Below are positions 222 through 43,994 of a stretch of DNA of 64,000 nucleotides, in pieces; the first letter of the stretch is position 1, and each line of letters opens with the position of its first letter. The position numbers and the translations under genes are program-made. This DNA comes from Halichondria panicea. Taxonomy: Eukaryota > Porifera > Demospongiae > Suberitida > Halichondriidae. The notes beneath the pieces are model-generated. The model was not told the origin of the DNA. It ran no database searches and was given only the letters and a program-made list of their open reading frames with translations. The stretch lies in assembly GCF_963675165.1 (NCBI RefSeq), contig NC_087377.1, positions 17,815,018 to 17,879,017 on the forward strand, written 5' to 3'.

Positions 222-3200
222 GTCAACTCATGTTCGGTTTTGGAGAGCTGGACTTCACTAATCCTGAGCCTAACAATATTACCGTCTCTGTCACCAAAAG
301 TGGGGCTAACATCGGTGACCTCGTCATCAATATCACCCCACTGACGTATGCCCAGCTGGAGAGTATGGGAGTGCCGATACCTGCCGGGATTGGGGCGGGG
401 GCCAGACCTGATCCAGCCGAGTGTGAGTTCACACTTTAGTATGTTTAGGGAACTACATGTACACTGCATGTGAGTTATATTGCTTGGAAGCCAGCCTATA
501 TAGCTGTGAAGGGTGTAAATTAGACCAACCGCATATATAATTATGTAGCAGGTAAGTTTGGCGAATGTAGCTATTATGTTTAATTTGACGATCCTAAACT
601 TGCTTTTTTTTCTCGTACTGACAGTTGAGGCGAACGGAAAGCAAGACTTCAGCAACGATGTCATCCAAGTCACGTTCCCTGCCACCACTGCGGTGGACCA
701 GATGGAACAGGCAGTCACCATCTACTTTAGGAACGATGATATTAACGAAGCAACGGAAGGATTCTATCTTCACGCCACCATCGACACTGCCGCTAGTAAC
801 GCGATGGACGTACAGCAAGCCAGTCCCGTACGGAGCGGAGTGACACTCATCAACATCAACGACGATGACAGTGAGTTGATTGGCATCCTCACACATCAAT
901 GACATGCATGCAAGTCATGCACAAACATGCACATGCACAAGCTATTATATGATAATGGAGGGCGCTGCAGATGATGATTTAAAAATATCCTATTATTTTG
1001 CTGGAAGGTATTCAAGTTTTATTGCAAATTTGTGGAAAATGTAGCTATAATTATTATTATTATTGATTCTCAGCACTATAATTAAATAGCAGCTCAATAT
1101 ACTTGTATAATTATGCACATTTGCTTGCTTTGCGCGACCTTAGTGTTCTTGTGTGTACAACATCGTAGTCTGTGTACAGCTTCCCCCTCATCTCCTCTGC
1201 TAGGCACTACCTAGTACTATCTAGTGCATTTATGATCTTATGCATAGTGTATATTTCCCTATAGCTACATTTCCTGGTGATAAGAATGTCAGGAATCTTT
1301 CCTCTGAATCTTTCATTTCCCATTCTTTACAGTTATACGTGTTGCTTTTGAGATGTCTGCCTACACTGTGCGTGAAGATGCTGGTTTGGTTGATGATCTA
1401 CTCTTTGTGATTAAGGAGGACGGACGAGCTTCGGAGCAAACCCTCAGGGTATTGGTAGAGGCGTCAGTTCCAGCACAGGGTCGTGCCATCAGAGGTACAT
1501 CAGTGTGTGTACAGTACCGTATTACTAGAACATTTTGCTGGTGAAAAACCTTTGCGAATGAGCCAAATCAGCAGAAAAGTTGACCCTTTGCAATCTAACT
1601 ATTGCGTTTATGCAGTGTGTGCACAGTATACGTACGCACCCACTATACTATAGGCCCAAATTAGGGGAAGTGCATGTGGGCTATAAATGTATATAGAGTG
1701 ATATACCGTATTACTGGAATGTTTTGCGAACATCATTATTATGCGAACTTTGCAATGGTTGATCAATTCGCAACAATAAAATCGGCAAAACCTAAATTAT
1801 TACTAGTAAATACACACGATCCTACACGATCCTTGCCAGAACGCAATAGTTAGATCGCAAAGGGACAAATTTTCTGCTGATTTGGCTCATTCGCAAAGGT
1901 TTTTCACCCACAAAATATTCTAGTAATACAGTATTTATATTGATGGTCCATAGTTCGTGTTGCAAACGTCTGATTATAGTCGTGCATGGTATAAAATTAT
2001 AGAAATTAATACCTAACTGAAAATTTAAGTCCTTTACAAGCTACGTACATAATTTACTGTTTTTACGTCTAGAATTGCTTATATAGACATGTTGCACGTA
2101 TCTAATTAATGCACATGCTTGTTCTATAATTACAGGTCCAATTAGTTCCGGTCCAATCGATTTCATAATCCCGGCGCTCAGTGATCCGGAAGAAGTCACC
2201 GTTCCCATAGAGTTTGTGTTCGAGGTCGCTGACTCCCGACTCAACATCTCATTCGAAATTATTGAAGATGCTATATTAGAGTTATTTGGGGACCAGATGG
2301 AAAATTTTGTTCTATTGTTGTCCATAGCTACCAATCCCGCTGTGAATCTGCAAGCCGGTGACAATACCAGGGCCACTATCTTCATTATAGATAACGACGG
2401 TATATTGCTAAACTTCTGGATATTACTTTAAAGATTTAAAAACAAATCTTTATCATTATATGTACTTTAATTAACGCATATAGTATTTCATATACCATGC
2501 ATGTAACTGCATGCACATACGTAGCTCGATTCCCTGCTAATGACTAAAGCTAATAAATGGATTGTACTTCATTATTAATTTTTATACGACTAACGATTTT
2601 TCACAGTTGGTAGAATCGGGTGGGAGCAAACCTCGTACAGTATTGTCGAGGGCGATGCACTGCCGTTCCAAGTGCTGGAGGTGTGTGCCCGGATACTTGA
2701 GCCGGCACAGATTGCATCGAATGTGGAGGCAATTATTTTTGCTGACAACGTGGACATTGGCTCTGCTATCAGTGAGTGAGGATGATTACATCATTATTAT
2801 AGCGTAATAATTATTATATCAATTTATCTTTTACGAGTGCAAAAACATTTTGTAATTGTGGTATAATAATCTTTAATTGTTTCTTTATTTCCTCCTTCTC
2901 ACAGGTAATTCGGATTACCTTGATTTAGAGCCGGGAAGTTTCAGTGGAGACGATATATTCATAGTAGACCCTGGCTTCAGGGGGTGTGCCCAGTTAACTG
3001 TTATCGGAGACGTAATGCCTGAGGGGAACGAAACACTGCAGCTACGACTGGTCACTGATATGGGGAACCCAAACATTATTGTCAACGCTAACTTCGTGTT
3101 TGATCCAAACGTGACTGAAGTCATTATCATAAACGATGATGGAGATATACCAAGTATGTGTTTATATATACGATTACTATACAGTGGGCTATTTTCTTAT

Positions 3201-4632
3201 AGTCAAAATATTTGTATTTAGAGCATTAAATCGAAGGCTTTACGTCACCATTCTGAGCTGTACGCAGAACTAATTTCGTACGAAATGTGGTTTATACGAA
3301 AATGTGCACCCAACAAAAATTACCCACTATTATATTTGCATTGTATTTAGTCTATATACTCCTCTCTCACCACAGCTCCTATGCCTAGCCCCTCCCCAAG
3401 TTCCACCCCAAGCCCATCCCCTTCCCCCTCCTCGACAGAACCTCCTCTCCCACCACCCACAGTTGTCATGGTATCACCATCCCCTTGTGAGTACTCATTT
3501 GCTTGTGTGAACATTTTTGTATAATTATACGCAATTATAAATATGTCTAGAGGCTATTGTTGATTGCAGTCCTCCCGCCCCCACACACACAGCGGCCACA
3601 CCCACACCCGACTCCTCAGTTCGTATGGGTGGAGATCCTCACTACAGTATCCTGCTGCCCACGGGCCAGCTCCTCTGTTACTCTGTCCAGGGAGAACACA
3701 ACTTTGCCTTTAATCTCATCAGCAATAAACTACTCCAAATGAACGCTCTGTTTATCGCCGATAGCCGGAGAGAGGAGATTACGTGGATCGGAGAATTAGG
3801 AGTGGTGGTGAAGGAAGGGCCTAAAAAGAAAAGTGGAAATTCGACATCGCTGCGCTTCTGCTCTAAAGAAAAAATGGTATGCGTCGGGGATAAGATTAAG
3901 TTGAATGCTAGCGGTGTGGAGCGGCTGACGTTTAGTAAGGGCAAGTTGTCCATATCCGAGCGAGTGGAACAGGGAGACTTGGAACGGCCCGAGGTTAGGG
4001 TGGAGTTTCCCGATATGGGAATCAGTTTTACGGTTGTGTTTGTGCGTGGAAAGCACTTGGATATGATGTGGAATAAAGTGGAACCAAGTATGGAAAAATC
4101 TCATGGAATGATAGGTAAAACTAGCAAAAATATATAATTATTATTATAGTAGACACTGTTTGGAAAGTTTCTATGATTTATATAGAAGCCCAATGAGCTG
4201 GTTGTAGTGTCCCGAACGTAGTGAGGGTTCTACTAGCCCTGAGGGCTTCTAAATCATGTGGAAGCTTCCTAAACAGTGTCTATACTATATAGTGAAACTC
4301 CTCCATCACTCTCTCCCTTTTCTCTATATTGTTAAAAATTATGCTGTTTCTTTCGGCCTTGTGCAGGTCAATTCTTCCGCCAAGGTGTGAAGATCGACGA
4401 GGCACGACGATTATTGCTCCTCCCTAAGTTGGAGCCGGTGGCGGTGATGAGGAAACCTGTCTGGCACTTTATGGAGAGAGAGTCTCCGGATGAGAAGTTG
4501 TGTTGGGTGGCCATGAACCAAGGTTACCAGGGCAAGGGACTCCTCCAGGGACACTACCTCGACTATCTAGTAGATGACGTCCTCACTGCGGACTTCAAGT
4601 TCAAGAAGTCCAAGAAGAAGAGATCAGCCTAG
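222..4632 (+). CDS. Secreted Calx-beta x3 / ITI heavy-chain C-terminal domain protein (gene 1, 5' partial)
   Basis: Nine exons read in phase: 222-422, 625-870, 1333-1494, 2136-2399, 2607-2771, 2905-3153, 3376-3486, 3593-4114, 4367-4632 (TAG stop), giving 727 residues. The signal-peptide exon, by analogy with gene 2, must lie left of the window. Exon pairs 1+2, 3+4 and 5+6 each build one Calx-beta domain, ending in acidic strands such as INDDD, IDNDG and INDDGD that resemble the Ca2+-binding ends of the family. Exon 7 is a Ser/Pro/Thr-rich linker. Exons 8-9 form a domain opening with GGDPHYSILLP, containing HGMIG/QFFR across the last intron and ending GHYLDYLVDDVL, which matches the C-terminal domain of inter-alpha-trypsin inhibitor heavy chains (ITI_HC_C). 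There is no VIT or VWA domain. The exon 8 acceptor at 3593 was chosen because only it keeps the frame. Family assignment is firm; a role in extracellular matrix or adhesion is inferred. Confidence 0.85.
1706..1930. mobile_element. Short foldback DNA element (family with GTATTACTAGAAT ends), plus an inverted partial copy from 1520
   Basis: The ends read CGTATTACTGGAATGTTTTG and its complement near AATATTCTAGTAATAC. A truncated copy in inverted orientation occupies 1520-1616, so the intron carries a long inverted repeat. Relatives lie at 19314-19500, 50800-51000 and 52488-52692. It has no coding capacity and is probably a MITE. Confidence 0.6.
3218..3304. repeat. Fragment of the TATAGCGGGT-type short repeat family
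   Basis: An intronic stretch with TACGTCACCATTCTGAGCTGTAC and a cgtacgaaat core resembles the repeats at 21050-21160, 45944-46095, 49360-49530, 50301-50472 and 59556-59706. It is degenerate, so membership is tentative. Confidence 0.35.
4147..4288. repeat. Foldback repeat in the last intron of gene 1
   Basis: The arms TAGTAGACACTGTTTGG and CTAAACAGTGTCTATACTA are near-perfect inverse complements, and inner arms (tagaagcc / ggcttcta) continue the hairpin. It lies between the two exons of the ITI-type domain and is probably a MITE. Confidence 0.55.
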
Positions 4633-5114: not shown

Positions 5115-8084
5115 ATGAAAGCCAGCAATGGTTTGAAGTTATCTTCGTGTGTCTTTGTACTGCTGGTCGGATTGTTAGTCAAGCACACTACAAGTGAGTT
5201 TCATACTGTTGTGGATCGATAGCAATTTTAGTAACATTAAATCACTGTAAAATAATCTATGTACACTGGAACGCCTCTATAACGGATACTTTTGGGAAAG
5301 AATATGTTTTGAGAGGTGGTCATGGACTAAGGTTATCAGGGACTGCTTAATATACAGAGGACCATGTGGCCTTTGTTGAGGGGTTGTTTTGGACCTGGCC
5401 TTTATAATTATCCGCACAGTTGGCCCTCAGGGGTGGCCGTTACGATAAGAGAGGTTTCACTGTATCCCACATCTATTCGATATTCAGCAGTATTAGGTTC
5501 ATGTGGAGACATGCATGCTCAACGTTATTGCAGAGGCAAATTGCTAAATCGAGGCACACGTGTCGTATCTCCTCTGTGTATGGTTAGTGACAGTGACACC
5601 ACCATCGCTGCATGGTTGCTCCCTTATAGAGCACATGCATACAATCCTCTCATGCAGCGGTGACATCACTATATAGTATAGTATGTGCCTCTCGGGTTCT
5701 ATAATCATGGCTACTCTTATCTACTCTTGCTCTTGGTGATTTGTCTGGCTTCACAGCAATGCAAAGCACAATAGACACCATCGCTGCATGATATCGTTGC
5801 TCCCTGATATAAGAACCCATACATGTACACGCAACCTGCTCATGCATGCAGTGACTAGCGGAGACGTAGACAACTGGTACTACAGCTAATGTTCACTTAG
5901 AAACACATTCCATATGTTATAGTCCATAGCTGTTTGCGTGCACTTCATAGCTATTCAGGAATGTTGGTTGAAATTGGTACCATGCATGCGATTGTATCTA
6001 ATATTAATCATCCATTCTTTTCCCCATTTCTGCAGGTCAAGTAGTACTTGGTTTCTCTGAAGAGGATTATGCTGTTGTCGAGGGAAGGAACGCCATGGTA
6101 ACCGTCACCAAGAACAACCAGAATCAGTTTCCCATATCGCTGAGTATTGTCCCGTTGACATACAGTCAGTACCAGGGTATAGTGCCGACTGAGATACAGG
6201 GCATCATCGACACTGTGACACCCACCCCGGCTCAATGTGCGTGATTTAGTTGAATACGGTACACTTCCCCACCACACACACACACCGCCCCCTCCATAAA
6301 CACACCCCGCCCCCTCCACACACACACCACCCCTGATCCCTCCCTATACCCACACACAACCGCCCCCTCCCCATCCACACACACACACACACCACCTCCT
6401 TCCCACACACAACTACCACTCCCTCCCCACCTACACACACACCCTCACAGTTGTTCAGGGGGGCAGGACAGATTTCAGTGATCTGTCTATTCCCATCACC
6501 TTTCCTCCCAGTCTGAGTAGTGATTCTGTCACCGTTGCTGTGGGAGCAAGTGATGACTTCATCAATGAAGCTAGTGAAGGCTTCATCATTATGCTCCGTG
6601 TTGACCAGATTGACCCTGCTGATGGCACGCCCACTTTTGTTCGAGAGGGTGTGGCCTTGATGAGGATCACTGATGATGATGGTAATTAAACTAATTAAGC
6701 AATGAAGCATATAATCTAAGAATTTACAATTACAATTACCCTGTACATGCATGCAACATGACTCCCTTTCACACACCCACCCACACCACCATCCACACAC
6801 ACACACACCCACCCACACATAGCTGTCAGTATTTCGTTCAGTGCGCCATCTTATGATGTGAGTGAGGGTGCTGGTCTCCTTAGCAACCTGGTGTTTATCG
6901 TGAAAGATTTGGAGTCTGAGCAAAACTTAACCGTCATTATCAGTAGACAGATCACTTCAGCAGGAGCGTCATTCGCCACGCCAGGTAAACATGGAGTCTA
7001 AAAAATTAAGTCAAAGATGTTTTAGGTTTAGAGATATTTTTTTGCTGTGTACAGAGGTCCGGAGTTTGCAGAATCTTGGCATTATTAAAAAGCGTTCCTT
7101 ATGATTATGGAACGTGTGTATACACTGTGGTCCATAAAAGGAACGCACAGTGTGTGCTCAAACTATTCACGTGTTGCGAAGATTCTGCAAACTCCGCTCA
7201 TATAATTTAAATTATAATTATAGAATATCGAAATACGCCCACTCATTCTCCACACAGATGTTGACTTTGTCGACATTGTCACGATGAGCTTCACTTTCCT
7301 CCCCGCGGACACCATGCTACCCATTGCCATAGAGATATTGGAGGACACGGAGCCAGAAGCAGACGAAATGTTTACGTTGATAATATCAATTCCCCCAGGT
7401 CAACCCCGGGTCACCCCTGGCACACCTCCCCAGGCTGCCGTGGTGATTGCAGATGATGATGGTGAGTGATAGTAGCCATGACAACACTCAATTTATCGTG
7501 TGCGAACGTACGACTTTTGCATGTGCTAACTATTCCTTAGCAACGTGTAATATTATATTATAGTAATTACATCATTAATGTAAGAGCTGTTTTCACTGTT
7601 CTCGAACTATTGATAACGAGGGGGCGGGGGTTGTACGTAGTTGAACATCTTTTAACTGCCATACTTTAGTTTAGTTGCATTGATCCGATGTCAAGAATTT
7701 ACTGAAAGCTTAGAAAAATACGTACCTTTCAAATGTAAATCCGAAATTTCAGCAGAGCTACAAATTTGTCATTTGTCCCCCTTATACTCATGTCCTATGA
7801 ACTATTCAGAACCCAAAGTATTTATTTTTAATTGTACAGTACTTAGCCCCTCCCATTACCACACCCCCTGCAGGTACGACGCTCGAGGTGGGTTTTCTAC
7901 AAACCACGTACACGGTCATGGAGGGGGAGGACGCTGTCATAACGTTCGGCCTTCTCACAGACCCTACCCTTTTAACGGCAGATGACTTTGCGGTCATTGA
8001 TATTGAAGTAGTCGCGGATACTGCCACTTGTGAGTCTGCATGCACTTACGATATTTGTGTTGTTGATCGGGGAATTTGCCATTT

Positions 8085-8127
<43 letters not shown>

Positions 8128-11100
8128 GCACAGCCTCTGTGGACTACGACAGCTCGGCCGTGGCTGACGGGTTCTACTTTATTGCCGTGGGCGGGGCCAC
8201 CAGCTCGTTCACTATACCCACCACCCTCGATACTGATGTCGAAGGCAGTGAAAGTTTTGTAGTTAGACTAGCTTTCAGTCAGGAGGTGGGCAATGTAGCC
8301 GGAGATTTTGTGGTCAGGGAATCAAACCGTCAAGCTACTGTGATCATTCAAGAGCCCGGAGGAAATGAACGTACGTAAGAGCGTACGTGTTGCCTTGGTA
8401 ACTTTGTCATTGGTCAACAAATTTTCTTTCAGGCAAAATTTAAGTCCCTCGAAAATTGGGAGCTATACGGTGTATGAGTTTACAACATTTTTGCTACATA
8501 CGTACGTTGGATATTGCCAGCATTTTGTCATAGTTACAATGATATCTTTTTGCTTATAATTATATATCAACATTTTGGATAGCATTGCCGTCAGAATTAT
8601 TAATACTACATAGCGTTTCCATGGTTACACAACAATGATCTCCCTCTGATTACAGCCACTGTGCTGGAGCTAACACCGAGTCCATCCCTGGCCGGTATTG
8701 AGGGTGACATCATCACGTTCACATGCGGCCCACCGGAGAACGATCCAATCACTCTATTAGTCAATGGGCTCGCAGATACAACGGTAGCATTCGATGACGC
8801 CACGGGTAACCGCACGTACAGTTTAGGGCCGCTGGATCGCAACATGGAGGGGAACACGTATCAGTGTACAAGTGGGACACGTATGAGCGAGATCACCACC
8901 CTCTCCGTCTACTGTAAGTGGGTGTGGCTAACAGTTGTGATAGTTATGTAAGCACAAAAAACAGCTGAAGTAGAATATGTATTTTTTCTATTAACATCTG
9001 TACGTATAAATGTACATACACTGTATATATAATTATACTGCTGTCGTTGTGTCAATAGCCTTATCTCCGCCCCCACACACACACTCACACCCGCCCACAC
9101 ACACACAGACCCTCCCGTCTTCACTGTGGGTGCATTCTTCGAGGGTAACGAAGGGGATGCTCTGCGTATCAACCTCTCGCTAGACGGGAACCCTCTTCCT
9201 CTGGATAGCTTCTCCTGGACATACGATGGACAGCCTTTGTCTGCGGAAACAGGACGACTTGTATTTGGGGCGGAGTTTATAGAGTTCACGCCCCTTCAAC
9301 GTACAGACAGGGGGCGGTACATGATAACCGGTAGCAACCTTGCCGGCAATGGAAGTGCCTTCTTTGATCTAGAGGTCTACTGTGAGTTACTTCGTTTAAT
9401 TTACAGTATTAATATTTTAATAATGAATATGCATGGAGTGCCCCCTTTGAGAACACTCCCCCCCACCACCGAGTTATTAGGCCGTCAGAATGGAATCCCT
9501 GGACTTGGTATTGACTCTCAATCACTTTACCAAAACTGCACAACAATGCTTAATAATTTTAGCTAGGCACTGGAGTGAACCTTATTCATCTTGTTGTATC
9601 TATATGTATGGACTAGAAGCTTCATACGTATTGCCATACTATTGTTCATACTTACCCCCCCCCCCCTCTCCTGCAGATGTTCCCTCTTACATCGCTGACC
9701 CCGTGTACACTGTCATCGAGGGTCAGCCCGGACAAATACAGCTATCACTGGACGCACGCCCTCTTCCCGGGCCCAGCGAGTTCTCTTGGTCACGTGACGG
9801 TGTCCCCATCTCCTCGTCAGGTCAGGTGACACTCACGTCCGACTCTATAGACTGGAGCAGCGTGAACAGGAGTGATGGGGGAGCGTACATGGTGGTGGCT
9901 ACTAACAGAGCAGGATCTGGAACCGCTTCGTTTCAAGTGGTCGTTATCTGTAAGTAATCTTGTACGTAGCGACGAATAATTATATGAATAGTGAACACTG
10001 CTGTCCTGCGTACATTATATCCTAATTAGTACAGGGGGTGGAGTATAGAACAAATATACTTCCGTACAACACAAAGCGAATCAATTGTATCAGCTGTTTG
10101 AATACGTATTGGTATACTGTTACTAGGGTTGCCATTTGCATAGCTACATCACCAGTAGCTATAATAATTATAGCTATAATAATTATTATGTTGATTTCTG
10201 GAAAGTGACCAACCAGCCTATCACTATATTATTGTTGCTATTAGTAACCCGCCCTCCCACAGATCCTCCCGTGTACACTGTTGACAGTCGTATTGCCGTG
10301 GTTGAGGGGGACCTTGTTCGTATCAACCTGACCCTAGATGCCAACCCAGATCCCACGTCTTTCACATGGACCCGTGACGGTGTCCCCTTCACCCCGCCCC
10401 CGGGGGGGTCTGTGGGGGTCAACTTCATTGACTTTGGGGGGCCTATTAATCGGACTGCTGGGGGTAGCTACACCGTGCAGAGTACCAACGATGCAGGCAC
10501 TGGAAACGCTACTTTTCAACTTGAAATTTTATGTGAGAATAAATACAATAATTATATATCTGCTATCAAAAATCTCATGTGATTGGGGAGTGGCTATCTT
10601 TGAAACGTGTTTACATGTACTTTTATGCATTTTTATTGCAATCACCCATGTCAACTACTTTTTATTAGGAAACTTTATATTGAGAATTGTATTAGCTGTT
10701 TGAATATACTGTTACTACTAGTAACCCGTCCTCCACAGATCCTGCCGATAGTCGTATTGTCGTGGTTGAGGGTAGCCCTATTCTTATCAATCTGGACGCT
10801 AACCCAAATCCCACGTCCTTCTTCTGGACCCGTAACGGTGTCCCCTTCACTCCGCCCCCTGGGGGGTCAGTGGGGCCCAACTTCATTGACTTTGGGGGGC
10901 CTATTAGTCGGAGTGCGGAGGGTACCTACACTGTGCAGAGTACCAGCGATGCAGGCACTGTCAACTCTACTTTTCAACTTGAAGTTATACGTAAGATCAA
11001 AAATCCATCAGTTGTGAATATTTCGGAGATTGGGGAATGGTTATCTTTGAAACGTGTTTCCTTATAATGTTCTCTTTATTGCCGAGTCACCCATGCATGC

Positions 11101-13533
11101 TAACTATACTTTCTATTAGTCCTTGCTTGGTAGCAAACTTGACAATTGTATCAGCTGTTTGAATATATATATACTGTTACTATAGTAACCCGTCCTCCCA
11201 CAGATCCTCCCGTGTACACTGTTGATAGTCGTATTGCCGTGGTTGAGGGGGACCTTGTTCGTATCAACCTGACCCTGGACGCTAACCCAGATCCCACATC
11301 TTTCACTTGGACCCGTGACGGTGTCCCCTTCACCCCACCCCCTGGGGGGTCTGTGGGGGTCAACTTCATTGACTTTGGGGGGCCTATTAATCGGACTGCT
11401 GGGGGTACCTACACCGTGCAGAGTACCAACGATGCAGGCACTGGAAACGCTACTTTTCAACTTGACATCTACTGTGAGAATAAATACAATAATCAACGCT
11501 ACGTACGTCCCTTTTGAGAGTACTAGAGGCGCTCTGTAACTAGAGTTATGATGGACGATTTTAAATTTTGATTTTGACACATCATCTGAATGGCATCTCT
11601 CTAAGCTTTCATAAAATCATAAAATTAACGTTTTTGGACCAACAGAAAACTAAAGTTATGGCCATTTAATGCTCTATGTAACGCTTAGATAAAAGAGTTG
11701 TGTATGTAAAATTCCCACATATTAAGCTGAACTTTGTTTCCATGACAATCTTGTAGATCCGCCTGTGATAACGGTCAACAATACGTTCACTGTATTGGAA
11801 GGGGAAGTGTTTGACCTCACGCTATTAGTGGACTCCCTACCAGTACTCACCGACGACAACGTCACCTGGTTCTTCAACAACCAAGTCATACCCGGAATGA
11901 TGGGCATTTCATTTGGGGCAGATTTTATCCGGATTGACATGGTAACTCGGCTGGACGGTGGGACCTATCGGGTGGAGGGTACCAACGTTGCAGGGACGGG
12001 AGAGGCATCCTTCAGTCTCCAAGTGGTTGGTAAGTAACTTATAGAGCACCTCCCTCTCCGAATGTCATTAATTTAGCTCTTACTTGGATAGGTCCATTAA
12101 TTGGGTGGTGGTTTGTCATAATAATATCAAAAATCCATCAGTTAATTAAAAACTTGTTTTCATACGTGCTATTATTATTGCAGTACCCATACCGACTACT
12201 GTGATCCCTACGGCAACATCCACTCCCACACTGATGTCAACTTCAGTTCCAGTTCTATCAACAACTTCCATGCCAAATCCCACTACCTCAGTTCCGCGCC
12301 CCACGGTCACACCTACGCCAGAGCCACCTGTCACGACCGTCACCGAGCCGCCACAAACCACCGGAGGTATGGGCGGAGACCCTCACTTCAATATACTCCT
12401 GCCCAACCACCAGCAGCTTTGTTTCTCCATACAAGGTGAACACGGCTACTCGTTCAACCTGATCAGCAACAAACTCATTCATATGAACGCTCGTTTCATT
12501 CCGGATCCAAAACGAGAAGAGGTGACTTGGATTGGATCTCTGGGCATCGTCGTAACGTCTAGTACGAAAATGAACGCAACCAGAATTCGTTTTGAAGCCG
12601 AAGACAAGATGATATACATTGGGGAGAAGCTATCTCTGCATGTTAAGAAGATTGATCGACTTACATTCACCAATGGGAAGTTGACGATTTCCGAGGCTCT
12701 TCGCGATAAGAAAGAGAAGCGTTTCCGTGTGCACGTTGAGTTGGTTGATATCGGGTTGTCATTCTGTGTGGATTTTGTGAAGGGGCACTTGGACATGACC
12801 TGGAATAAAGTGGGGAAGCAGCCGGCTAACTCGCACGGCATTATTGGTGAGTGGGTGGGTCCTGTTAACCTCTTTCACAAGGCCTCAGAAAGTGCGGCCT
12901 GGAATCGAGGCTAGGGTCCTGTGTATACGTAGCTATCTTTGATGTCCTATAAGGATTATCCAATTTCTAATCTAAAGGTTATAGCTCTTGAACCTATCAA
13001 ATAATATGTTTAAATTAGTGGTACGTTATTTTTGGGACTGTTTTCATGAAAATATTAGCTATTATAGCCTTGGTGCATGGTTGTATTGGGCTTGGCAATC
13101 ACTTTTAATGTATGATTGTATGTACTGTATTCATTACTTCATAGCAATTCATAAAAGCTAACTACAAAATGTTCCTATATATGATCTAGAGCTAACACTG
13201 CCCCGCCCCCTTATCCCCGCAGGTCAATTTTTCAGGCCTCACATCGAGATCGACGAGGCACGACGATTGTTGCTCCTCCCAACGCTGGAGCCGGTGGCGG
13301 TGATGAGGAAGCCTGTCTGGCACTTTATGGAGAGAGAGTCTCCGGATGAGAAGTTGTGTTGGGTGGCTATGAACCAAGGTTACCAGGGCAAGGGACTCCT
13401 CCAGGGGCACTACCTCGACTACCTAGTAGATGACGTTCTTACCCCTGATTTCAAGTTCAAGCTGCGCAAGCACAAGATGAGAAACTGTTGTAGATTTAGA
13501 GACTTGCAGAGAACACACGTTTTTAACTCATAG
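5115..13533 (+). CDS. Secreted Calx-beta x3 / Ig-like x7 / ITI heavy-chain C-terminal domain protein (gene 2)
   Basis: Sixteen exons give a 1370-residue protein: 5115-5193, 6036-6236, 6451-6681, 6823-6984, 7258-7461, 7874-8029, 8134-8370, 8656-8913, 9109-9381, 9677-9949, 10263-10532, 10739-10990, 11204-11473, 11757-12029, 12184-12846, 13223-13533. Exon 1 encodes a signal peptide (basic start, then SSCVFVLLVGLLV). Exons 2-7 make three Calx-beta domains (ends ITDDD, IADDD). Exon 8 is an Ig domain with a Cys pair (TFTCGPP, TYQCTSG). Exons 9-14 are Ig-like but lack both canonical cysteines. Exon 15 starts with a Thr/Pro-rich linker and then GGDPHFNILLP of the ITI_HC_C-type domain, which exon 16 completes (GQFFRP, GHYLDYLVDDVL). 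Exons 2 and 4 have the same lengths as gene 1 exons 1 and 3 (201 and 162 nt), so genes 1 and 2 are tandem paralogues. No membrane segment is seen; a secreted adhesion or matrix role is inferred. Confidence 0.88.
5264..5462. mobile_element. pogo/Tigger-like MITE in intron 1 of gene 2
   Basis: The left end CACTGGAACGCCTCTATAAC and right end AAGAGAGGTTTCACTG are imperfect inverted repeats of the CAGTG(G/A)AACCTCTATAA type. They are flanked by TA on both sides, the expected target duplication for Tc1/mariner-pogo elements. About 199 bp, non-coding. Confidence 0.55.
7057..7196. repeat. Foldback repeat in gene 2 intron
   Basis: The arms CGGAGTTTGCAGAATCTT and AAGATTCTGCAAACTCCG are perfect inverse complements about 100 bp apart, and inner arms (ggaacg / cgttcc) also pair. 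Probably a small MITE. Confidence 0.6.
10079..11480 (+). repeat. Three tandem intron+exon units carrying near-identical Ig-like exons of gene 2
   Basis: Exons at 10263, 10739 and 11204 start 476 and 465 bp apart. They share both the exon and the preceding intron (for example tgtatcagctgtttgaata followed by gttactat...gtaacccg). The middle exon is 18 nt shorter, having lost a short stretch after its start and a codon later, but stays in phase. This is a recent tandem amplification of a symmetric phase 1-1 exon. Confidence 0.8.
11534..11677. repeat. Interspersed repeat (AAAGTTATGGCC / CTTTCAGAAAATCATAAAAT family)
   Basis: It contains the blocks aagctttcataaaatcataaa and aactaaagttatggcca, shared with 22004-22222, 54656-54955, 55480-55560, 55998-56245 and 58210-58470. 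Several members are palindromic. No coding capacity. Confidence 0.55.
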
Positions 13534-17030: not shown

Positions 17031-17510
17031 TGGTCGTTTTTTTATTTTTTTTATTTTTATCAACATGTACATGTATTGAATATTGTGAGTGACAGAGGCT
17101 GAGATGGATAAGGCAAGGTAATGGAAGCTACATGTATAATTATTCGGAGTTCAGACTGAGATGTTGGAGTCCGCAATGGTGAGATCCACGGAAGCAGTTA
17201 GATGGCCGTTGAAGGATGACTATCTGGCGCCTCTCAGACACATGATAGAAGATCTGAGTAGTGAGAACAAGAATGATATTCTACATCTTAGACAGCCAAT
17301 GGTGGTGCTGTATGGTTGCTTCCATTTGTCCGAGAGCATGCTGGCATGCAGGCGTTTGTAGAAGGCTGCAGCTGCTGGGCCAAGGCCATCTTGTGGTAGT
17401 GAAGACCATGCAGGGGGGTAAAAGAAGAGTGCTCCACTTCTCATATACGCTGGCAGTAGTTCCCTATACTGTCTTTCATTAGGCAGTAGCACATGGGTTA
17501 TTTTTTTAAA

Positions 17511-17832
17511 TTCAAGCACAAGATGAGAAATTGTTGTAGATTTAGAGACTTGCAGAGAACACACGTTTTTAACTCATAGTGTATGGAGCTTAGAATTTGT
17601 GTTTATTGTGTACATGTACATTGTAGAAAGTTTTGTATGCTAACTGTCACAGTTGTGCGCATGCGCATGAGCCAGCCACCACCCACACGCATTGGTGAGC
17701 TATATAAGCACCACTTCCCCCTGAAGCCACAAACCAGAGCAGAGCAGACCTATTATTAAAAACTGGAGAGACTCTGAAAGTTCATCCTAGCTATATACAA
17801 GTGGAACAACAACTCACCAATATCCTCACAAA
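17511..17832 (+). promoter_or_regulatory. Gene 3 promoter and non-coding first exon within the duplicated segment
   Basis: TATATAAG at 17701-17708 is a good TATA box. Downstream, a leader containing ggagagactctgaaagt ends at a donor CACAAA/GTGAGT (exon end 17832). An acceptor CACTATAG at 18560 lies 9 nt before the gene 3 ATG, so a spliced 5' UTR is likely. A TGCGCATGCGCA palindrome at about 17656 upstream fits an NRF1-type site. The front of this block is a duplicated piece of gene 2's last exon. Confidence 0.55.
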
Positions 17833-18569: not shown

Positions 18570-21500
18570 ATGGCGACTAGAAGCTGTGCCTCCTTGCAAT
18601 GGTGTCTCTCTGTTCTATGGCTGTCAGTACTTCTTCACAGCAGCACAGGTGGGTCCGATCATCGCGGCATTTTAAATATGTGCCTGCATGTGTGCATGTG
18701 TGTGCATGCATGTTCGTGTGTGTGTGCATGCGTGGCTTCGACTTGGAAATGTCATTGAGTGTGTATGTTTACAAAAGTCGATAACCTAATAGGTCAACAT
18801 TATATTGTTATTAACCTGTATACCCTCTGAACAGCTACACTGAAGCTTGTTGTTACCTATACCAGTTTATACCCCTTTTGCACACACTCATTGCTGCATG
18901 CTTATACCTAGTTTTACACCCCCTGCATGTATACAGCCCACTTATATATGTTGTTGCCTACTTGTTTTACACCCCCTGCATAGCCCACTCAGACTGTTGG
19001 GTATAATGATGTTTTATATCCCCTGTATAGCCACATTCAGTTTGGGGTTTGCTGAGGACGATGTCAGTGTAAAGGAAACAGACAAAATAGTGGAGATCAT
19101 TGTCGCCACTCAGGAGATGGCTAGCGAGTCTGTTACCATGGAGATTGTCCCCATAGATATCGAAAGATTCCGTCAGCTGGGAAAGGAAGTACTGTTTGAC
19201 CAAGAATCTGCCACTTCCGGTAAATTAAATAATTAATTACATATACATTATTATTGTGGTCATGTTACGTTGTACTGTAAGCCTACACATGCACTCCATA
19301 TAATTATATATATATCGTATTACTAGAATGTTTTGCGAACTTTCCAAGCATTTATCACTTTGAAAAAAACCTAAACTACTACTAGTAAATACACACGATC
19401 CTTGCCAGAACGCAATAGTTCGATTGTAAAAGGGTCAAATTTTCTGCTGATTTGGCTCATTTGCAAAGGTTTTCACCAGCAAATTATTCTACTTATACGG
19501 CGTATCTTTGTACTAGTGTTATACCCTCCTTGTAACTTTACATTAATAATTCTACTTGTTTGTACAGATGCAGACTTCAATGCAACAATACAAAGGATCA
19601 CAATTCGCCCAGGGCATCAAGGAGATGTGAAAGTTGAAGTAGAGATTTTTGACGATTCTATTTCAGAAACTGAAGAGATGTTTGCAATTCTCCTTCGAGT
19701 AGTGGAAGGAGGCGATGATGATGGTTCCAACGTTCAGTTGCTGAGGGATACGATGACTGTATTGATTAGGAGGGACAGCACTGATGGTACGTTATGGGGT
19801 GTGGTAGGGGACTAGAAGCACAGCATGGGGTGTAGTAGGGGACTAGAAGACACATGGGGTGTGGGAGACTATATAGACACGATGTGTGTAGTAGGGGACT
19901 ATAGCGATGTGTGTGGCGGGGGACTAAGACATATGGGGTATGGTGGGGGACTAGAAGCACACCGTGTGTTGGCACATGGGGTGTGGTAGGGGACTAGAAG
20001 CACATTGTGTGTGGCACATGGGGTGTGGTAGGGGACTATAGATCGACACATGGTGCGTGGTGGGACAGGGGAGTAATTACATTAGCTATACTGCATAATT
20101 AGTTAATTTACAATGGCCTTATCTCTAGCCCACACTGTGTTTGGCTTCTAATGGCTGTTAGAAAATGTTATCATTCAACCACCCTGAAGCCCCCCACCGT
20201 AACAAATGTCATCCATTCAACCCAAGAAGCCCCCACTATAATCCGTACTTCTCCAAGTATTGTGTATTGTGTGTGGTTAGACAGACTGGGTGGGTGGATG
20301 TAGCACCTAGCTGTTACGGTGATTCTATCCTTTTGCAGCCGAACGTACGGTGGTGAGCTTCAATATGGCTTCTCTGAGGATGTCCGAGGGAGTGGGTGTG
20401 GTCAACAGCACCGTATTTATAGAGTTAGAGGGGGCGGCTCAACCACCGCTGATGGTCGACCTGCAAATGACAACATTTGATGGAGCAAATCGTAAGCGTG
20501 CCTCATTACCGTATAAGCCGGTAGATGTTCGAGGGATAATTTTTCGGGAATTTCAACTAAGATGCATGTTCAACATACAAGCCTGCTAAAAAAAACTGCT
20601 TTTCTCGAAAATATTATGTGCGAAATTTACCAAACATTTATGCCCTGCTATAAGATACTTTTTGTTCACTATTCATTATTACATACAGGAGATGATATCA
20701 TTCTATTTTCCACTACAATCGTCATTCCACCGTCTGCCAGTCGCGTCTCGGTTCCATTTCAAATATCTGATGACCTCATCTACGAGGGTGATGAGAGGCT
20801 GCAGATTTCCCTTTCACGCCCCGCCAACTATTCGCAACTCTATCGCCTTGGTTACCCGAACACCCTATCTCTAACTATTCAAGACAACGACAGTAAGTGA
20901 TGATCTAGATATTCAGTAATCCTAAAAAATAAAGTTATTAAGTGGAGTTAAGTTAGGACCAGGGGGCATCCCCTACTATACTCTTCATGATCAGTGACTA
21001 CACATGTAAAATGTATATTATTATCGTTGGTGATTTAAAATGTTCATACAATTCAGGATAGTTACGTTTAACGTATTGCGGTCGAATAATTTTCGTAGTT
21101 TTAATTTTCGTATGATGCTGTACAATACGAAATGTACAAAAACAACCCGCTATATGGTAGTAGTTGTTCTGCTATAGCTCTGCTTAAGCTTACTACTATA
21201 TATATATAGAACCTTTGGTCCCTTTGTCAACAACACCACCATAATTACATTTGGAATGGATTTCATTGCTATAATTTTATTGCAGTTGCTCATATTGCCA
21301 TGGAGACAGCAAACAACGCTACTACTCTATTGGAAGGAGAGCGTATACAGGTTTGTGTCAGACTGTTAGAACCATCAGAACTGGCCAGCTTCATTGATCT
21401 AAAAATTGTGGAAGAAGCTCCAAGAGTGGTGTCCAGTAAGTGCAGGGCTTCTGTTGTATAGTGTATACTGCACTGATTTAATTATAAACTATTATTATGT

Positions 21501-23338
21501 ATTATAGATCCCACTTGAGTGTATTTAGCAGGGAACTATGAGCTATGATTTGTAGTTCCCAGTAACTGCATGTATAGATTGCTTTTCAGATACCAATTAT
21601 GTTATATTGCTAGCTCAAGTTAGCCAATGAACAGTGGGATCTAAAATAACCATGAATTATTTTGTAGCTGATTTAATGATTTGATTATTAATTTTGCTTC
21701 ATGCAGGTGCTCCTCATGTCAGTGTGTTTGGTGATACACACTTTTACCTGTATGACTCCTACCGTCTTCACTGTCTGACGTTGTGGGCTTCTGAGGATGA
21801 TGTCATCACCCCTTCATGGACTCTGACCTTTCAGCTCGTCCTTGACCCCACGGTATATGACCTGGTCGCAAACACTTCCATCGTATTATCACCCGAGGAG
21901 GTGCAGCTCGTTGTGATGGACAATGATGGTACGTGGGACCATATCAGTACAGTATGTACGTACTTTCAAAATGAAGGGGACCTATAGACTAGCATTAAAA
22001 TAGAGAATTTTTGAATGGCCATAACTTTCGTTTCGTTGGTCCAATAATGTTAATTTTATCGCTTAGAGAGAGGTCTTTCAGATGACGTGTTAAATAATTT
22101 CCTGAAAATAATTATGGAATTATGGCCTGTTTTAAATTTGGGATTTGAGCATACCATCTGAGCAGGCTTCTTCGAAGGTTATAAAATCGTTCAATTTGGA
22201 CTGTCAGAACTCTAGTTCTAGAAAATTAAGTATAGTTAGTATCCCTCACTCTCTCCGCCTGTTTGACCCTTAACCCTTTGACCTTTCTCGTACCCCACCC
22301 CTTGACCCTTGACCCCTGCAGGTATCCCTAATACCCCCTCCGATGTTAAGGCCCAACTGATCAACCAAGGCAAGGATATGCTCGTTATATGGACCGCCAC
22401 GTCCACCCCCTTACAGCCAGTCGAGCAATACGTGGTCGAGGTTGAAGGTCAAACTACGCAAGTTATAAGGCGACAGACAAATATCCATGATGACGATGTC
22501 CGACATCGATACGTCACCACGGATACGGAGATTATCGTACAAGGCATTAAACGTGGCATGGCGTACTCGGTGATTGTATGTGCTGAAAACACTATAGGAC
22601 GTACTTGTGTAGAGCCCGTAATGATAAATGGCAGTGCTTTTGTTGAGGGTCCTCGAACTGGAGGGATACTACTCGGAGGGAGTGGGCGTGGTCTGCCTGT
22701 GTGGGTGTATGTTGTGAGTGGAGTAGTGTTGGTGGTGATGGTGGCTGTACTAGCGTGTCTGTTAGGACTCTGCTTCTGTTATAGAGCTAAGAAGATCAAC
22801 AGCTACTACCCAAGCGAGCAAGGTGAGTGATCTGTCTCTTTAGTATTATATCTAATTCGAATTTCTCTTTAACTTTTTTGCTTTGTTTGCTATTATTTTT
22901 AATAACTATTTGTTATTCTTATCTTGCAGAGAACAAGATGAATAAGGACACAAGTAGTAAAGAAATGTACGTCGTAACCATTATAGTCGCTACATATAGC
23001 TATACCAATTGTTTGTCTATAGCGGGTATATTTCGAGGGTATAAATGTTTGCAGTTCTCTCTGATTAAGCATGTACCGCGAACATTTATACCCACGAATG
23101 CTGCAAAAAGACTGTTATATTCCGCAAAAATTTTCCTAGGGTCATTCCACGAAAGTCCAAATATACCCACTATATGGTAATCAAATGTGTCTATATAGTT
23201 CGATATATTATCTTGTTTTTTTTGTCCCCATGCAGTTACAAAGTAACCCCGTCTAGTGATGGTGGAGACAATAGCACTGCCTCAACTGAGTGGGAACTCA
23301 TTACCAGCAGCAAGGACTTTAAACTTAACATTGTCTGA
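18570..23338 (+). CDS. Single-pass membrane protein: Calx-beta x3, FN3, TM (gene 3)
   Basis: Ten exons give 618 residues: 18570-18648, 19031-19219, 19568-19786, 20339-20491, 20689-20892, 21286-21435, 21707-21928, 22322-22822, 22930-22966, 23236-23338 (TGA). Exon 1 encodes a signal peptide (SLQWCLSVLWLSVLL). Exons 2+3, 4+5 and 6+7 make three divergent Calx-beta domains (SLGFAEDD start; ends IQDNDS and VMDNDG). Exon 8 holds an FN3 domain (PSDVKAQLI, MLVIWTATS, YSVIVCAEN) followed by a TM segment (VWVYVVSGVVLVVMVAVLAC) and a basic stop-transfer RAKK. Exons 9-10 add a short Ser/Thr-rich cytoplasmic tail ending LNIV. Exons of 219, 204 and 501 nt are shared with gene 4, its tandem paralogue. It looks like an adhesion or recognition receptor; ligand and signalling are unknown. 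Confidence 0.87.
19314..19500. mobile_element. Foldback element, GTATTACTAGAAT family, in gene 3 intron
   Basis: It begins CGTATTACTAGAATGTTTTG and carries the acacacgatccttgccagaa and ctgctgatttggctcat blocks shared with the 1706-1930 copy. Confidence 0.6.
19795..20056 (+). repeat. Intronic minisatellite (ggggtgtggtaggggactagaag)
   Basis: About seven imperfect copies of a 30-45 bp unit built on GTGTGGTAGGGGACTA follow directly after the third exon of gene 3. It is confined to the intron. Confidence 0.75.
21050..21160. repeat. Short repeat of the TATAGCGGGT / tacgaaat family in gene 3 intron
   Basis: It carries attcaggatagttacgttt, attgcggtcgaataat and caacccgctatat, the core blocks of the family also found at 46020, 49440, 50380 and 59590. 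Confidence 0.5.
22004..22222. repeat. Palindromic interspersed repeat (GGCCATAACTTT family) in gene 3 intron
   Basis: It opens with gaatggccataactttcg and closes with the inverse-type block gactgtcagaactctagttc, with agagagaggtctttcaga inside. It matches repeats in the KMT2 introns at 56130 and 58210. Confidence 0.55.
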
Positions 23339-23466
23339 ACACTGGCTGAAACTTGTGATCATTTTTATGCTCTTCTCTGTGTCACTTCCATTTATACTGT
23401 ACTGTAGTGTTTTGTTGTATGCATGGTCAGTGAATTTGTGCATGCACGGCAGAACAGAGTGGGGTT

Positions 23467-23571
23467 CTAGCCTCGATCCCAGGCCGAGTTTTCGCTTTTA
23501 TAACGGTAGGCGAACAACTGTTGTTTGCCTAACCGTTATAAAAGCGAAAACTCGGCCTGGGATCGAGGCTA
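23467..23571. mobile_element. hAT-like MITE, TAGCCTCGA family, with 8-bp target duplication
   Basis: A near-perfect palindrome: TAGCCTCGATCCCAGGCCGA at the left and its inverse complement at the right. GTGGGGTT flanks both sides (23459-23466 and 23572-23579). It is 105 bp and lies between genes 3 and 4. Confidence 0.85.
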
Positions 23572-23726
23572 GTGGGGTTCCTAAAGGTCATGTTCTATTA
23601 GAACAAAATCGGCCTGGGAAAGCGCGCATGCACAGCAATGAATGTGATCTGGAAGCTATGCATAAAATTTATAAGTAAATAAATAACAACGACAAGTAGT
23701 CTCTATCACATAAACCAGCTCTTGAA

Positions 23727-26646
23727 ATGGCTATGAGGCTTATCTGCATTGCAGTTGCGTTGCTTGGATACGCTACAGTTGCACGTCTTCAAGGAGGTAA
23801 GTAAGCAATGCGGTTTAGAGCTAGAGAGCTACCGGTATCTAGCTGACCACACTATCTCTTGTTCGCATGTGCAGGTGCCGTCGTTAATGTGCAATTCTCG
23901 GAGAGTGACTATGAACGACACGAGGAGGCAGACTCACTGGCTCTCACTGTGTCCCTAGTGGGACCGAGCATTAATGATAATAATGTAGCATTGCAAGTTA
24001 ATGCATATACACGCCAGCAATTCGTTTCTCGAGGAATCACTTGCAACAATCCTCCTAATTTCTCTGTTGAAATAGCTGATGAAGGAGAAGGTCTATAGTT
24101 CTACTATAGCTACGAATGTGAAGATTATACGTTATTTATTTACTTACAGAAACGGAGCTTGTCAGCAATTTCACCACCTGCTCTGGAGTTCCATCCGCAG
24201 AGCCCGGGACGAAAATCTTATGTTCATTCGATATAGTTCAAGATGGCAGCCTTGAGAGGGACGAGTATTTAGTATTTGTGATGAGGCTAACGAACAATAA
24301 TGGCTATAACGTGAACGTGGGGAGAGACTGTACTATTGGCAGAATTTCTGCCCACGAATCTCTCGCAGGTAAAGCTAAAAATTATATTGTACAAGATGTA
24401 TATTTATACCATTTTTCTGTAGTTTTGACTGAAATAGGCTATCCTTTGGTAATAACGAATAGTGCTGAACTGATTGAGGTCAATGAAGGGTCATCCATCG
24501 TATTCCACATTGAGAAGAGATTCCAGACGGAACTGGACATCACTGTTAAATTTGAGATCAGCAACGACCCACCTGTTAGCAGCAATCCACTTCTGTCAGG
24601 ATCATCACAAAGTAATAGTCTTATCTCTCTGTTATATAACTATACTGGTTCTTTATAATATTATAGATGATGATTTTATTATCAGTCAAGTGATAATTCC
24701 AGCTGGAACAAGTAGTGTAGATATTCCCATGGAGATTGTCGATGATGCGTTGGTTGAAAGAACTGAATATCTTAGTATAATCTTTTTATCCAGAGTTTCT
24801 GGTCTCGATATCGGCAGTGAATTGCCGATAGCTAATAATAGGTTCAACGTCGCTATTCATGATAATGATGGTAAGGCTATAGTACTGTATAGTTCAAAGA
24901 ATGTATACTTCAACTCCTTATTGCAGTTTTGAGAGGTGGTCTTGATACACCAAATGACGTGGTAACTGTAACAGAAGGGAAAAAACTGGTGATATGTGCT
25001 GAAGTTATTGAACTTGATCAAATAAACGTACTGAGGCAGACTGCCCTGGAGCTGAGAGTTGTGGATGGATCAGCAATGAGTATGCGCATGCGTATATTAC
25101 TGTTAGAAAATGGATACATAATACAGCTTATATAGTAACTTTAAAATTCAAATTAATTGTTCGTTAGGTGGGACACACTTCAATTATTTTATGAATGGAG
25201 GAGGCTCTTCTATTATCAACCTGGAGGAGGGACCTGGTTGCATTACCATCTACACCATGGACAATGCACTTGCAGAGGGAAACAAGATGTTGCAGGTGGA
25301 CTTGATTGACAATATTCTGGCGGAACTATCGGACCCAGCTGATGCAGAGAGCTACAGGCAGTTGAACGTGATCGAACCAACTACAGTCACTGTTGTTATT
25401 AGAGATGACGAAGGTATTGGATTATGATAACTAATCAATGAAACAGTGAAATTGTATATGCAGATGATATAATTATGATGATGGTAGCTATAGCCTAATA
25501 TTTAATTATAAAATAGCACGATATTACGATATGGAAGGTAAAGTAGTCATCATGCACATTGCATATTTTGGGGGATGGTTTTCAGGAAGGTATTCAGGAA
25601 GGTATTCATGATCATTATCAACAGCAACTATGTAAACACTTCCTCCTTGCATACATTCCAGGCATTGTTATTCATACATGTAGGCGGCTAACAATTCCCC
25701 TGTCTATTATTTCGATCACATGTATATAATTATATGTTAATGCTTATTGTATTCATTACATCATTGTTTGGTCTCCTCTACGCTGCACATTCCCCTCCCC
25801 TCTCGCTCTGCTATAATTTATTGCTTCATACTGTTTTTTGGCTGCTATAATTATGGGGGTCTATGCATATTTTACTCTCATCCACACACACACATGCAGG
25901 TCCACCTAATCAGCCTAACATCATGATAATAGGAAGCGTACCGAGCATAGGTAGTCAACTGCGTATCACCTGGGAGACAGGAGACGAGGACGGTACTCAT
26001 CCATTTGTCTGTCACTTCGGTATCATAACTGAGCGTTCCAATGATTTGGAGAAAGAGATTTCTTTCGACTTTAACTTGTGCAATATGGACCCTCCGTCTA
26101 CAAGCAAGCAGTTTAACTTCCAAAACTTTGACCCAATCAAGACATATACAGTGGTTGTATGCTCCAAGAATTTGCTTGGACACAATTGCAGTGATCCTGT
26201 TGTAGTCTACGAGCCCGTGCTTTCGCCAGGGCCGGGGTCAGTACTGTACAAAGAGCCTACACTGTCCCCAGGCATTATTGCTGTCATTGTGATTGTAGTA
26301 CTGATAGTTGTATCCTGTTGCCTAGTGCTCGTTCTATTATTGGTATTCTGCCTGTGTTGTAAGGAGACGTTGTATAAAAACTATCGTCCTGAGAAAAGAG
26401 GTAAGTATGCCTCAGTGCATACAATACAATGTTGTGTCTACAAATCTTTTGTTTACTTGTACACATTCAATACTATTGTAGCTCCAGTGTTCCATGAATA
26501 ACATTATGAATGAAATCGTATGAAACTGTATGTACAGTCATGAGTTACTTGTGAATTGTGTTCTTTTTGTACAGAACAAAAGTTTGGAGCTCTAGCTCAC
26601 GGGTAAGATATAAACTTAGCTCTACTTAAGACTCTGTGCACACACG

Positions 26647-26698
<52 letters not shown>

Positions 26699-26892
26699 CA
26701 CACTCCACATACACACACACACACACACCTCACACTCCACACACACACACACACACCTCACACTCCACACACACACACACACCACACACACACACACCTC
26801 ACACTCCACACACACACACACACAGCCATGATGCACGCTATCTGTCAGAAGAATCAGTTGAAGATAAAGCAGAGCCACATGTGTACTCATGA
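23727..26892 (+). CDS. Single-pass membrane protein: Calx-beta x3, FN3, TM (gene 4)
   Basis: Ten exons give 630 residues: 23727-23796, 23875-24090, 24150-24368, 24423-24611, 24667-24870, 24927-25079, 25168-25413, 25900-26400, 26575-26602, 26826-26892 (TGA). Exon 1 is a signal peptide (MRLICIAVALLGYATVA). Exons 2-7 form three Calx-beta domains (starts VNVQFSESDY; ends IHDNDG and IRDDEG). Exon 8 contains an FN3 domain (LRITWETGD, YTVVVCSKN), then the TM segment IIAVIVIVVLIVVSCCLVLV, a Cys-rich juxtamembrane stretch and KETLYKNYRPEKR. The tail ends EPHVYS and has several tyrosines. The donor of exon 2 (GTCTAT) is weak but the frame supports it. The last three exons are copied at 43.6-44.1 kb. 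Probably an adhesion or recognition receptor paired with gene 3. Confidence 0.87.
26650..26825 (+). repeat. Large CA microsatellite ending at a gene 4 splice acceptor
   Basis: Runs of (CA)n broken by cctcacactcca repeat four times and end directly in CACAG at the acceptor of the last gene 4 exon. A shorter version precedes the equivalent exon at 44019. Confidence 0.85.
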
Positions 26893-27412: not shown

Positions 27413-27444
<32 letters not shown>

Positions 27445-37068: not shown

Positions 37069-37109
37069 CTTCTCTGTAGAGTGTGGAATAAAATAAACAA
37101 TGAAAGTAC

Positions 37110-43958: not shown

Positions 43959-43994
<36 letters not shown>

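Follow-up and report, generated by a model that had tools for sequence, protein, structure and literature searches.

It has long been asked how sponge cells are joined specifically and how their giant adhesion proteoglycans come to be assembled. The question bears on a 64,000-nucleotide (nt) stretch of the genome of the sponge Halichondria panicea (assembly GCF_963675165.1; C1:17,815,018-17,879,017, where C1 is contig NC_087377.1; hereafter the window), in which four neighbouring genes, g1 to g4, were predicted to encode proteins with extracellular Calx-beta domains. An earlier note on this DNA had proposed a linked adhesion or allorecognition locus, with g1 and g2 as secreted ligands and g3 and g4 as membrane receptors. 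Is the cluster such a matched set, or part of something wider?

By sequence comparison, the cluster of four genes is a local combination within a genome-wide mosaic family, and the last domain of its two genes with predicted secreted products opens with a GD|PH motif, which was not in the earlier note and is new here. We give an even chance to the following account: a family of adhesion proteins with a common three-Calx-beta front and exchanged C-termini, in which the GDPH ending would be self-cleaving and possibly glycan-coupling, and would contribute to a calcium-dependent matrix. The rival explanations weighed below are not all mutually exclusive with it.

A shared three-domain front

The three Calx-beta domains of each gene were numbered D1 to D3 and compared across genes. 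For 11 of the 12 the best match in another gene was the domain at the same position, the exception being g4 D1. BLASTP matches were collinear for g1-g2 (2e-36, Calx part), g3-g4 (8e-16), g2-g3 (4e-14) and g1-g3 (3e-11), weaker for g1-g4 (1e-6) and not significant for g2-g4. A tree of 28 rows was built from the 12 window domains and 16 others, which were hand-picked from many and cut with a hidden Markov model built from the window domains. In this tree D1 of g1 to g4 formed one group with three other loci (98/95), and the labels D1, D2, D3 and array required 5 changes against a mean of 16.0 after shuffling, a value as low being reached in 0 of 200 shuffles. D2 and D3 were each not a single group; the g3 and g4 rows had long branches, two of which meet (g3 D2 and g4 D2). 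On these comparisons the ectodomains of g1 to g4 are paralogous as a D1-D2-D3 unit, and the paralogy on which the earlier note had staked its reading beforehand held in both the domain comparison and the tree.

Exon lengths were also compared. The exact lengths reported earlier were confirmed (201 and 162 nt common to g1 and g2; 219, 204 and 501 nt common to g3 and g4). Equal lengths are weak evidence of kinship because split Calx exons are common in the genome, most of the genome-wide matches listed (best 150 of 645 candidates) spanning only one domain half. As a proof of kinship, matched lengths were dropped in favour of the domain comparison; the 501-nt exons of g3 and g4 are only 25% identical, with gaps.

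Domain identity was assessed with Pfam. Calx-beta (PF03160, curated cut-off 27 bits) scored 46.3 bits in g1, 67.3 in g2 and 47.5 in g3, all over the cut-off, and g4 falls below it (20.0 bits, E 7e-4). Of the three stretches expected per gene, three in g1, two in g2, two in g3 and one in g4 individually passed E<=1; the remaining domains were assigned from exon pairing and paralogy. Ig domains in g2 were borne out (Ig_3, E 2.3e-37, five stretches across seven exons). The division into two genes without and two with a transmembrane (TM) segment, all of Calx-beta type, was recovered as well. For the FN3-TM ending of g3 and g4 the outcome was mixed: the TM segment stands, and fn3 reached 24.6 bits in g3, just under the cut-off of 25, with no fn3 match for g4 in the Pfam scan. 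An AlphaFold2 (AF2) model of the FN3-like exon of g4 (pLDDT 65.6) gave FN3 in 4 of 4 PDB matches at E<=0.001 (Foldseek), with TM-scores by query of 0.33-0.40.

Calx-beta domains occur for example in Na/Ca exchangers, integrin beta-4 and VLGR1, and their acidic ends bind calcium. The domains described here are of the same family, with an acidic D-D/N-x end in 9 of the 12 (by eye), and these nine probably bind calcium. They differ from Calx-beta domains generally in forming an extracellular three-domain module with position-specific lineages.

The C-terminal domain of g1 and g2

The products of g1 and g2, which are presumably secreted, end alike. In both, GDPH opens the last domain; the nucleotide pattern has two occurrences in the window, where 0.05 would be expected. 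The domain is encoded by two exons, A and B. Exon A of g1 (3593..4114) holds the motif GDPHY (3631-3645, predicted cut 3636/3637) and is followed by exon B (4367..4632); in g2 linker and exon A are joined (12184..12846; GDPHF motif 12375-12389, predicted cut 12380/12381) and exon B lies at 13223..13533. After D|P there are 247 residues in g1 and 258 in g2, and the linker before the g1 motif (exon 3376..3486) is 71% P/S/T over 45 residues.

Ten full-length copies of the domain were found in the genome, two in the window, four on C5, one on C14 (where the model needs an extra intron with an unsettled border) and three on C12, plus fragments. D-P-H was present in 9 of the 10. Two pairs among the ten, m3/m4 and m9/m10, are near-copies, and the alignment and profile used for searches (A1) held eight copies, leaving out m4, m10 and the partial copies m11 and m12. 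In these eight aligned paralogs, at 45-67% identity to g2, D, P and H were invariant.

When the last domain was scanned alone at E<=10, all eight paralogs matched ITI_HC_C (PF06668, curated cut-off 27 bits), and no other family was matched by more than one of them. Scores were 13.0 bits for g1, 15.4 for g2 and 14.6-22.1 for five others (best E 1.3e-4); that of the eighth is at most the best. Matches spanned 5-185 (m8) and 17-185 (m9) of the 189 model positions. On this evidence the last domain is ITI_HC_C-like, not ITI_HC_C by the Pfam threshold: of the ITI_HC_C-type end described earlier, the likeness held in 8/8 paralogs, but the cut-off was reached by none, and there was no match at E<=1 for full-length g1 and g2 in Pfam or genome-wide in a six-frame search for PF06668. 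An NCBIfam scan gave five families, each for a single member. PDB sequence searches with the g2 domain and with A1 gave chance matches only (E 0.5 or worse), and a scan of prokaryote genomes with A1 gave 97 pattern matches and no relative. No paper joining Calx-beta with GDPH, ITI_HC_C or inter-alpha-trypsin was found in an open-literature search, outside which the main aggregation factor paper lay.

The GD|PH motif self-cleaves in mucins and FCGBP. Heavy chains of the inter-alpha-trypsin inhibitor (ITI), in which VIT and VWA domains come before a pro-domain, are cut at Asp-Pro in HC1 and HC2, and shed the pro-domain on ester linkage to chondroitin sulfate. The endings of g1 and g2 resemble these chains in a C-terminal domain of similar length (~240 residues) that opens with (G)DPH, besides the sub-threshold profile match, and differ in that the domain comes after Calx-beta and Ig, with no VIT-VWA body. 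In sequence they are also like the GDPH-type VWD domains of MUC2, FCGBP and RGMB, with GD|PH at the domain start of extracellular proteins, and unlike them in that a PF00094 match is absent at these loci. In PMC10880436, GDPH cleavage of FCGBP was stopped by mutation of Asp or His, and GDPH of ITIH3, ITIH5 and ITIH6 was placed between strands 1 and 2 of a sandwich, predicted to be VWD-like, that is not called VWD by UniProt, Pfam or Prosite. The ITI HC1 and HC2 pro-domains have 239 and 244 residues (PMC7170535).

From these likenesses a mechanism in two steps can be proposed. The Asp-Pro bond of GD|PH in g1 and g2 would first break by autocatalysis during passage through the secretory pathway, like that of mucins and FCGBP; by analogy, self-cleavage is somewhat probable. 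In a second, weaker step the freed C-terminal aspartate of the Calx-beta (and Ig) part might be passed to a glycan, as ITI heavy chains are to chondroitin sulfate; such coupling of the N-terminal part, also argued by analogy, is doubtful. The outcome of both steps would be a calcium-dependent protein-glycan matrix. In g3 and g4 the same Calx-beta module would be anchored in the plasma membrane through an FN3-like stalk; these two are candidates for holding the same partners or competing for them, a partnership that we regard as distinctly unlikely. As unlikely, taken whole, is the idea that a sponge adhesion matrix is partly built by ITI heavy chain chemistry, a Calx-beta/Ig protein cutting itself at GD|PH and passing its new C-terminal aspartate to acidic glycan. 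Were it true, the transferable pro-domain would predate the ITI heavy chain body and not depend on it, and protein-glycan joining in aggregation-factor-like particles would be explained. Should the ending both cut and couple, the covalent protein-glycan link would become a step with a named residue.

Several observations weigh against this account. None of the eight paralogs reached the ITI_HC_C cut-off, and GDPH lies ~33 residues ahead of the start of the model, so that the motif can be equated only by where it lies. One full-length copy, m10, a near-copy of another, reads D-S-H. An AF2 model of exon A of g1/g2, from two sequences, had a pLDDT of 35.7, too low for a fold search. Neither g1 nor g2 has the VIT-VWA body of ITI heavy chains (Pfam). 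Among 21 genome matches to VWD (PF00094) at E<=0.001 none was at a GDPH locus, nor was any of the 8 to VIT; with canonical VWD and VIT matches elsewhere, the GDPH domain appears to be used apart from both. Lastly, the acidic end is absent from g3 D1, g4 D1 and g2 D3.

The alternative that survives best, though still on the unlikely side, is that g1 and g2 are secreted matrix proteins in which GDPH self-cleaves and the halves stay joined, the cut stabilising the fold as proposed for FCGBP, without glycan coupling. The conservation of GDPH fits it, as does the cleavage-based stabilisation of VWD domains described in PMC10880436. Against it, the nearest profile is not VWD but ITI_HC_C, which in ITI heavy chains is the region that is shed.

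Distribution of the family in the genome

Front and back modules were found in varied pairings at other loci. D1-D2-D3 is also present at C1:14.81 Mb and C2:7.34 Mb, and D1-D2 in tandem genes at C4:1.25 Mb. All six second-half Calx frames tested at the first two loci matched Calx-beta and nothing else, three of them over the cut-off, and at each of the three loci EGF was over the Pfam cut-off in one downstream frame. A gene with three Calx-beta domains at C1:15.424-15.429 Mb has six FN3-like repeats and a TM segment; an FN3-TM exon is also present in a second relative, at C1:15.432-15.436 Mb. In the first of these the label FN3 is given for likeness to g4, since Pfam on the repetitive frame returned odd families and fn3_4, with no stretch passing alone.

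The GDPH ending likewise follows different fronts. Eight Calx second halves lie upstream of it at C5:1.42 Mb and eleven at C5:1.43 Mb (genes partly modelled), four lie ~4 kb upstream of the copy at C5:1.41 Mb, and one was seen at C5:1.62 Mb and at the C14 copy; no Calx second half was found for the three C12 copies in the stretch fetched. Front and back modules therefore appear to have been combined freely, and the range of endings within one genome points to exchange of C-termini in the family. That a single genome pairs one three-Calx front with endings as different as GDPH, Ig plus GDPH, FN3-TM, FN3 repeats with a TM segment, and EGF is a clear case of recognition-module reuse.

A second alternative is that these are true demosponge aggregation factors, the GDPH domain being part of their described von Willebrand or Wreath region. 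Aggregation factors with Calx-beta, von Willebrand and Wreath domains were reportedly described by Grice et al. 2017. Calx-beta proteins in a gene cluster, a mark used for aggregation factors, are found in g1 to g4. Also in favour, the shared ending comes after eight second-half Calx exons at C5:1.42 Mb, after eleven at C5:1.43 Mb and after one Calx at C5:1.62 Mb. The absence of a PF00094 match at the GDPH loci argues the other way, and we rate this alternative as unlikely, a little below the cleaved-but-joined one. Sponge aggregation factors are described in PMC7828597 as large proteoglycan-like particles that act with calcium and of which acidic glycan makes up half or more; on this ground a protein-glycan linker domain is plausible, not proven. 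The window genes are like the known factors (AqAF, MAFp3/MAFp4), which are proteoglycan-like calcium-dependent particles (PMC7828597 and PMC10815962), in being Calx-beta rich and clustered. They differ from AqAF and MAFp3/MAFp4 in that each has no more than three Calx domains, that the family also has endings of Ig, FN3-TM and EGF type, and that PF00094 VWD is absent at the GDPH loci.

The ligand and receptor locus proposed earlier, with g1 and g2 as ligands and g3 and g4 as receptors, is improbable. In its favour, the three-Calx ectodomain is common to secreted and membrane genes, an FN3-TM gene with weak Ig-like exons lies directly upstream of g1, an Ig gene with a TM stretch lies at 60.9-63.6 kb, and several g3 and g4 domains have long branches. 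Against it, secreted and membrane genes are not each other's nearest relatives. D1 of g1 and g2 groups with EGF-tailed genes elsewhere (95/91), the placement of g3 and g4 being unsure owing to long branches, and the closest kin of g4 is at C1:15.42 Mb, 2.4 Mb away, not g3: the FN3-TM exon of g4 is 41% identical to that of the relative at C1:15.432-15.436 Mb against 31% to that of g3. With the nearest kin of g4 elsewhere, neither a matched ligand and receptor pair nor pairing by local duplication is shown. In the other clusters inspected, secreted and membrane types were also not found linked. No GDPH copy was found at C1:15.42 Mb, and in the GDPH cluster at C5:1.405-1.440 Mb no FN3-TM relative was found with a g3/g4 FN3-TM profile or by genome searches with the g3 exon or g4, the profile being a weak one of two sequences that also missed the FN3-TM gene directly upstream of g1, and a frame with a hydrophobic segment (L041:2475-4238) being left unexamined. 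An inherited but inactive GDPH, the domain being a plain structural cap, is just as improbable, the one D-S-H copy with an open exon A standing against the invariance of D, P and H in the eight aligned paralogs.

Apparent homogenisation of exon B

Within the GDPH domain the two exons have diverged differently. Between g1 and g2 synonymous sites are saturated in exon A (proportion of synonymous differences, pS, 0.80), compared with a pS of 0.30 in exon B (Fisher p 1.2e-9), and a central run of 45 exon B codons had 0/109 non-synonymous differences at a pS of 0.16. The C5 copies m3 and m5 showed the same (0.83 in exon A, 0.27 in exon B). Among nine pairs compared on both exons the contrast was strong in these two only; it was weak in m3-m6 (0.77, 0.58) and absent or slight in four between-cluster or C12 pairs (g1-m3, g2-m3, g1-m6, m9-m8), and of the near-copy pairs m3-m4 was reversed (0.06 vs 0.17) and m9-m10 negligible. 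The similar DNA of g1 and g2 begins 4 bases before exon B and ends 11 bases before the exon B end. This is most simply read as gene conversion acting on exon B inside each cluster, by which one exon has apparently been homogenised in two separate clusters; silent-site selection could instead account for the likeness.

Gene models

The window lies on an 18.14-Mb contig, 260 kb short of its end, in a 131.5-Mb, 39-contig assembly. Gene models were built by hand from candidate splice sites, without transcripts, and some borders have alternatives. All introns in the models are GT-AG, and the four genes lie head to tail on the + strand, as the earlier note had stated. Its phase 1-1 exons were found at the domain-exon junctions of g1 to g4, but not in the tail exons of g3. 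Signal-peptide-like first exons were recognised in 4/4 genes by hydrophobicity or by eye.

The g1 model (222..4632, 751 aa) comprises Calx-beta x3, the P/S/T-rich linker and the GDPH/ITI_HC_C-like end; its signal exon (-80..-11) lies upstream outside the window, starting 80 bases before it. D1 spans 222..870 (exons 222-422, 625-870), D2 1333..2399 (1333-1494, 2136-2399) and D3, with two cysteines, 2607..3153 (2607-2771, 2905-3153).

The g2 model (5115..13533, 1370 aa) begins with a signal exon at 5115-5193, followed by D1 at 6036..6681 (exons 6036-6236, 6451-6681), D2 at 6823..7461 (6823-6984, 7258-7461) and D3, without the two cysteines, at 7874..8370 (7874-8029, 8134-8370). Seven Ig-type exons (8656-8913, 9109-9381, 9677-9949, 10263-10532, 10739-10990, 11204-11473 and 11757-12029; span 8656..12029) come before the P/T-rich linker and the GDPH/ITI_HC_C-like end, and the Ig stretches 10225-10552 and 11166-11493 are 94.5% identical. 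A remnant of the g2 3' end was found ~4 kb downstream of g2 at 17505-17630 (last 25 residues 96%; 127 aligned bases 87%).

The g3 model (18570..23338, 618 aa) has a signal exon at 18570-18648, D1 at 19031..19786 (exons 19031-19219, 19568-19786), D2 at 20339..20892 (20339-20491, 20689-20892), D3, with two cysteines, at 21286..21928 (21286-21435, 21707-21928), the 501-nt FN3-like and TM exon at 22322..22822 and cytoplasmic tail exons at 22930-22966 and 23236-23338.

The g4 model (23727..26400, at least 599 aa, tail end open) has a signal exon at 23727-23796, D1 at 23875..24368 (exons 23875-24090, 24150-24368; the donor at 24090 is weak), D2 at 24423..24870 (24423-24611, 24667-24870), D3, with two cysteines, at 24927..25413 (24927-25079, 25168-25413) and its 501-nt FN3-like and TM exon at 25900..26400. 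One or more possible tail exons lie at 26401..26892, with a stop at 26892, an unsettled splice site and a CA microsatellite in between. A segmental copy of the end of the g4 TM exon and its 3' flank was found on the same strand at 43617..45374 (26301-26696 at 88.9%, 26759-28189 at 93.0%); it includes the EF-hand frame of 27290-27658, and is 89-93% identical.

Neighbouring genes and other observations

A gene with fn3 (28.2 bits) and a TM segment is represented by open frames just upstream of g1, at C1:17,805,991-17,814,339. Its Ig-like exons were weak (E 0.017) or unmatched in Pfam, one of them matching the g2 Ig exons at 45 bits, and of several tyrosines in its tail one stands in VIYDTV, which we take to resemble an immunoreceptor tyrosine-based inhibitory motif (ITIM). 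The upstream stretch also holds a tandem minisatellite (L009:13-738) reading as a 12-residue repeat, with copies 72 bases apart ~98% alike. At the other end of the window (60924-63582, + strand), Ig-type exons (Ig_3, 37.7 and 60.4 bits) are followed by a hydrophobic stretch, forming another Ig receptor-like gene.

Elsewhere, the FN3-like repeats at C1:15,424,200-15,428,799 are near-identical, five and part of a sixth lying in one 726-codon frame that ends in a TM segment, consistent with a recent repeat expansion in this three-Calx membrane gene. A Calx-beta match at C6:2382998-2383231 lies in an open frame that runs for 10,065 codons without a break. One cathepsin-like locus (L058) has, by eye, Ser where the active Cys would stand, a weak pointer to a demosponge; the abundance of Calx-beta and the compactness of the genome also fit a sponge.

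Other frames in the window included one of 1187 aa at 39247-42810 with an endonuclease/reverse transcriptase look by eye, of the long interspersed nuclear element (LINE) type. On the - strand a protein kinase frame (7.3e-37) was found beside a weak Death-domain frame (E 0.062) at 35763-37152, with a kelch-like frame, by eye, at 33592-34518, and PHD-, SET- and CXXC-like frames at 52000-60000 have by eye the look of an MLL/KMT2-type gene.

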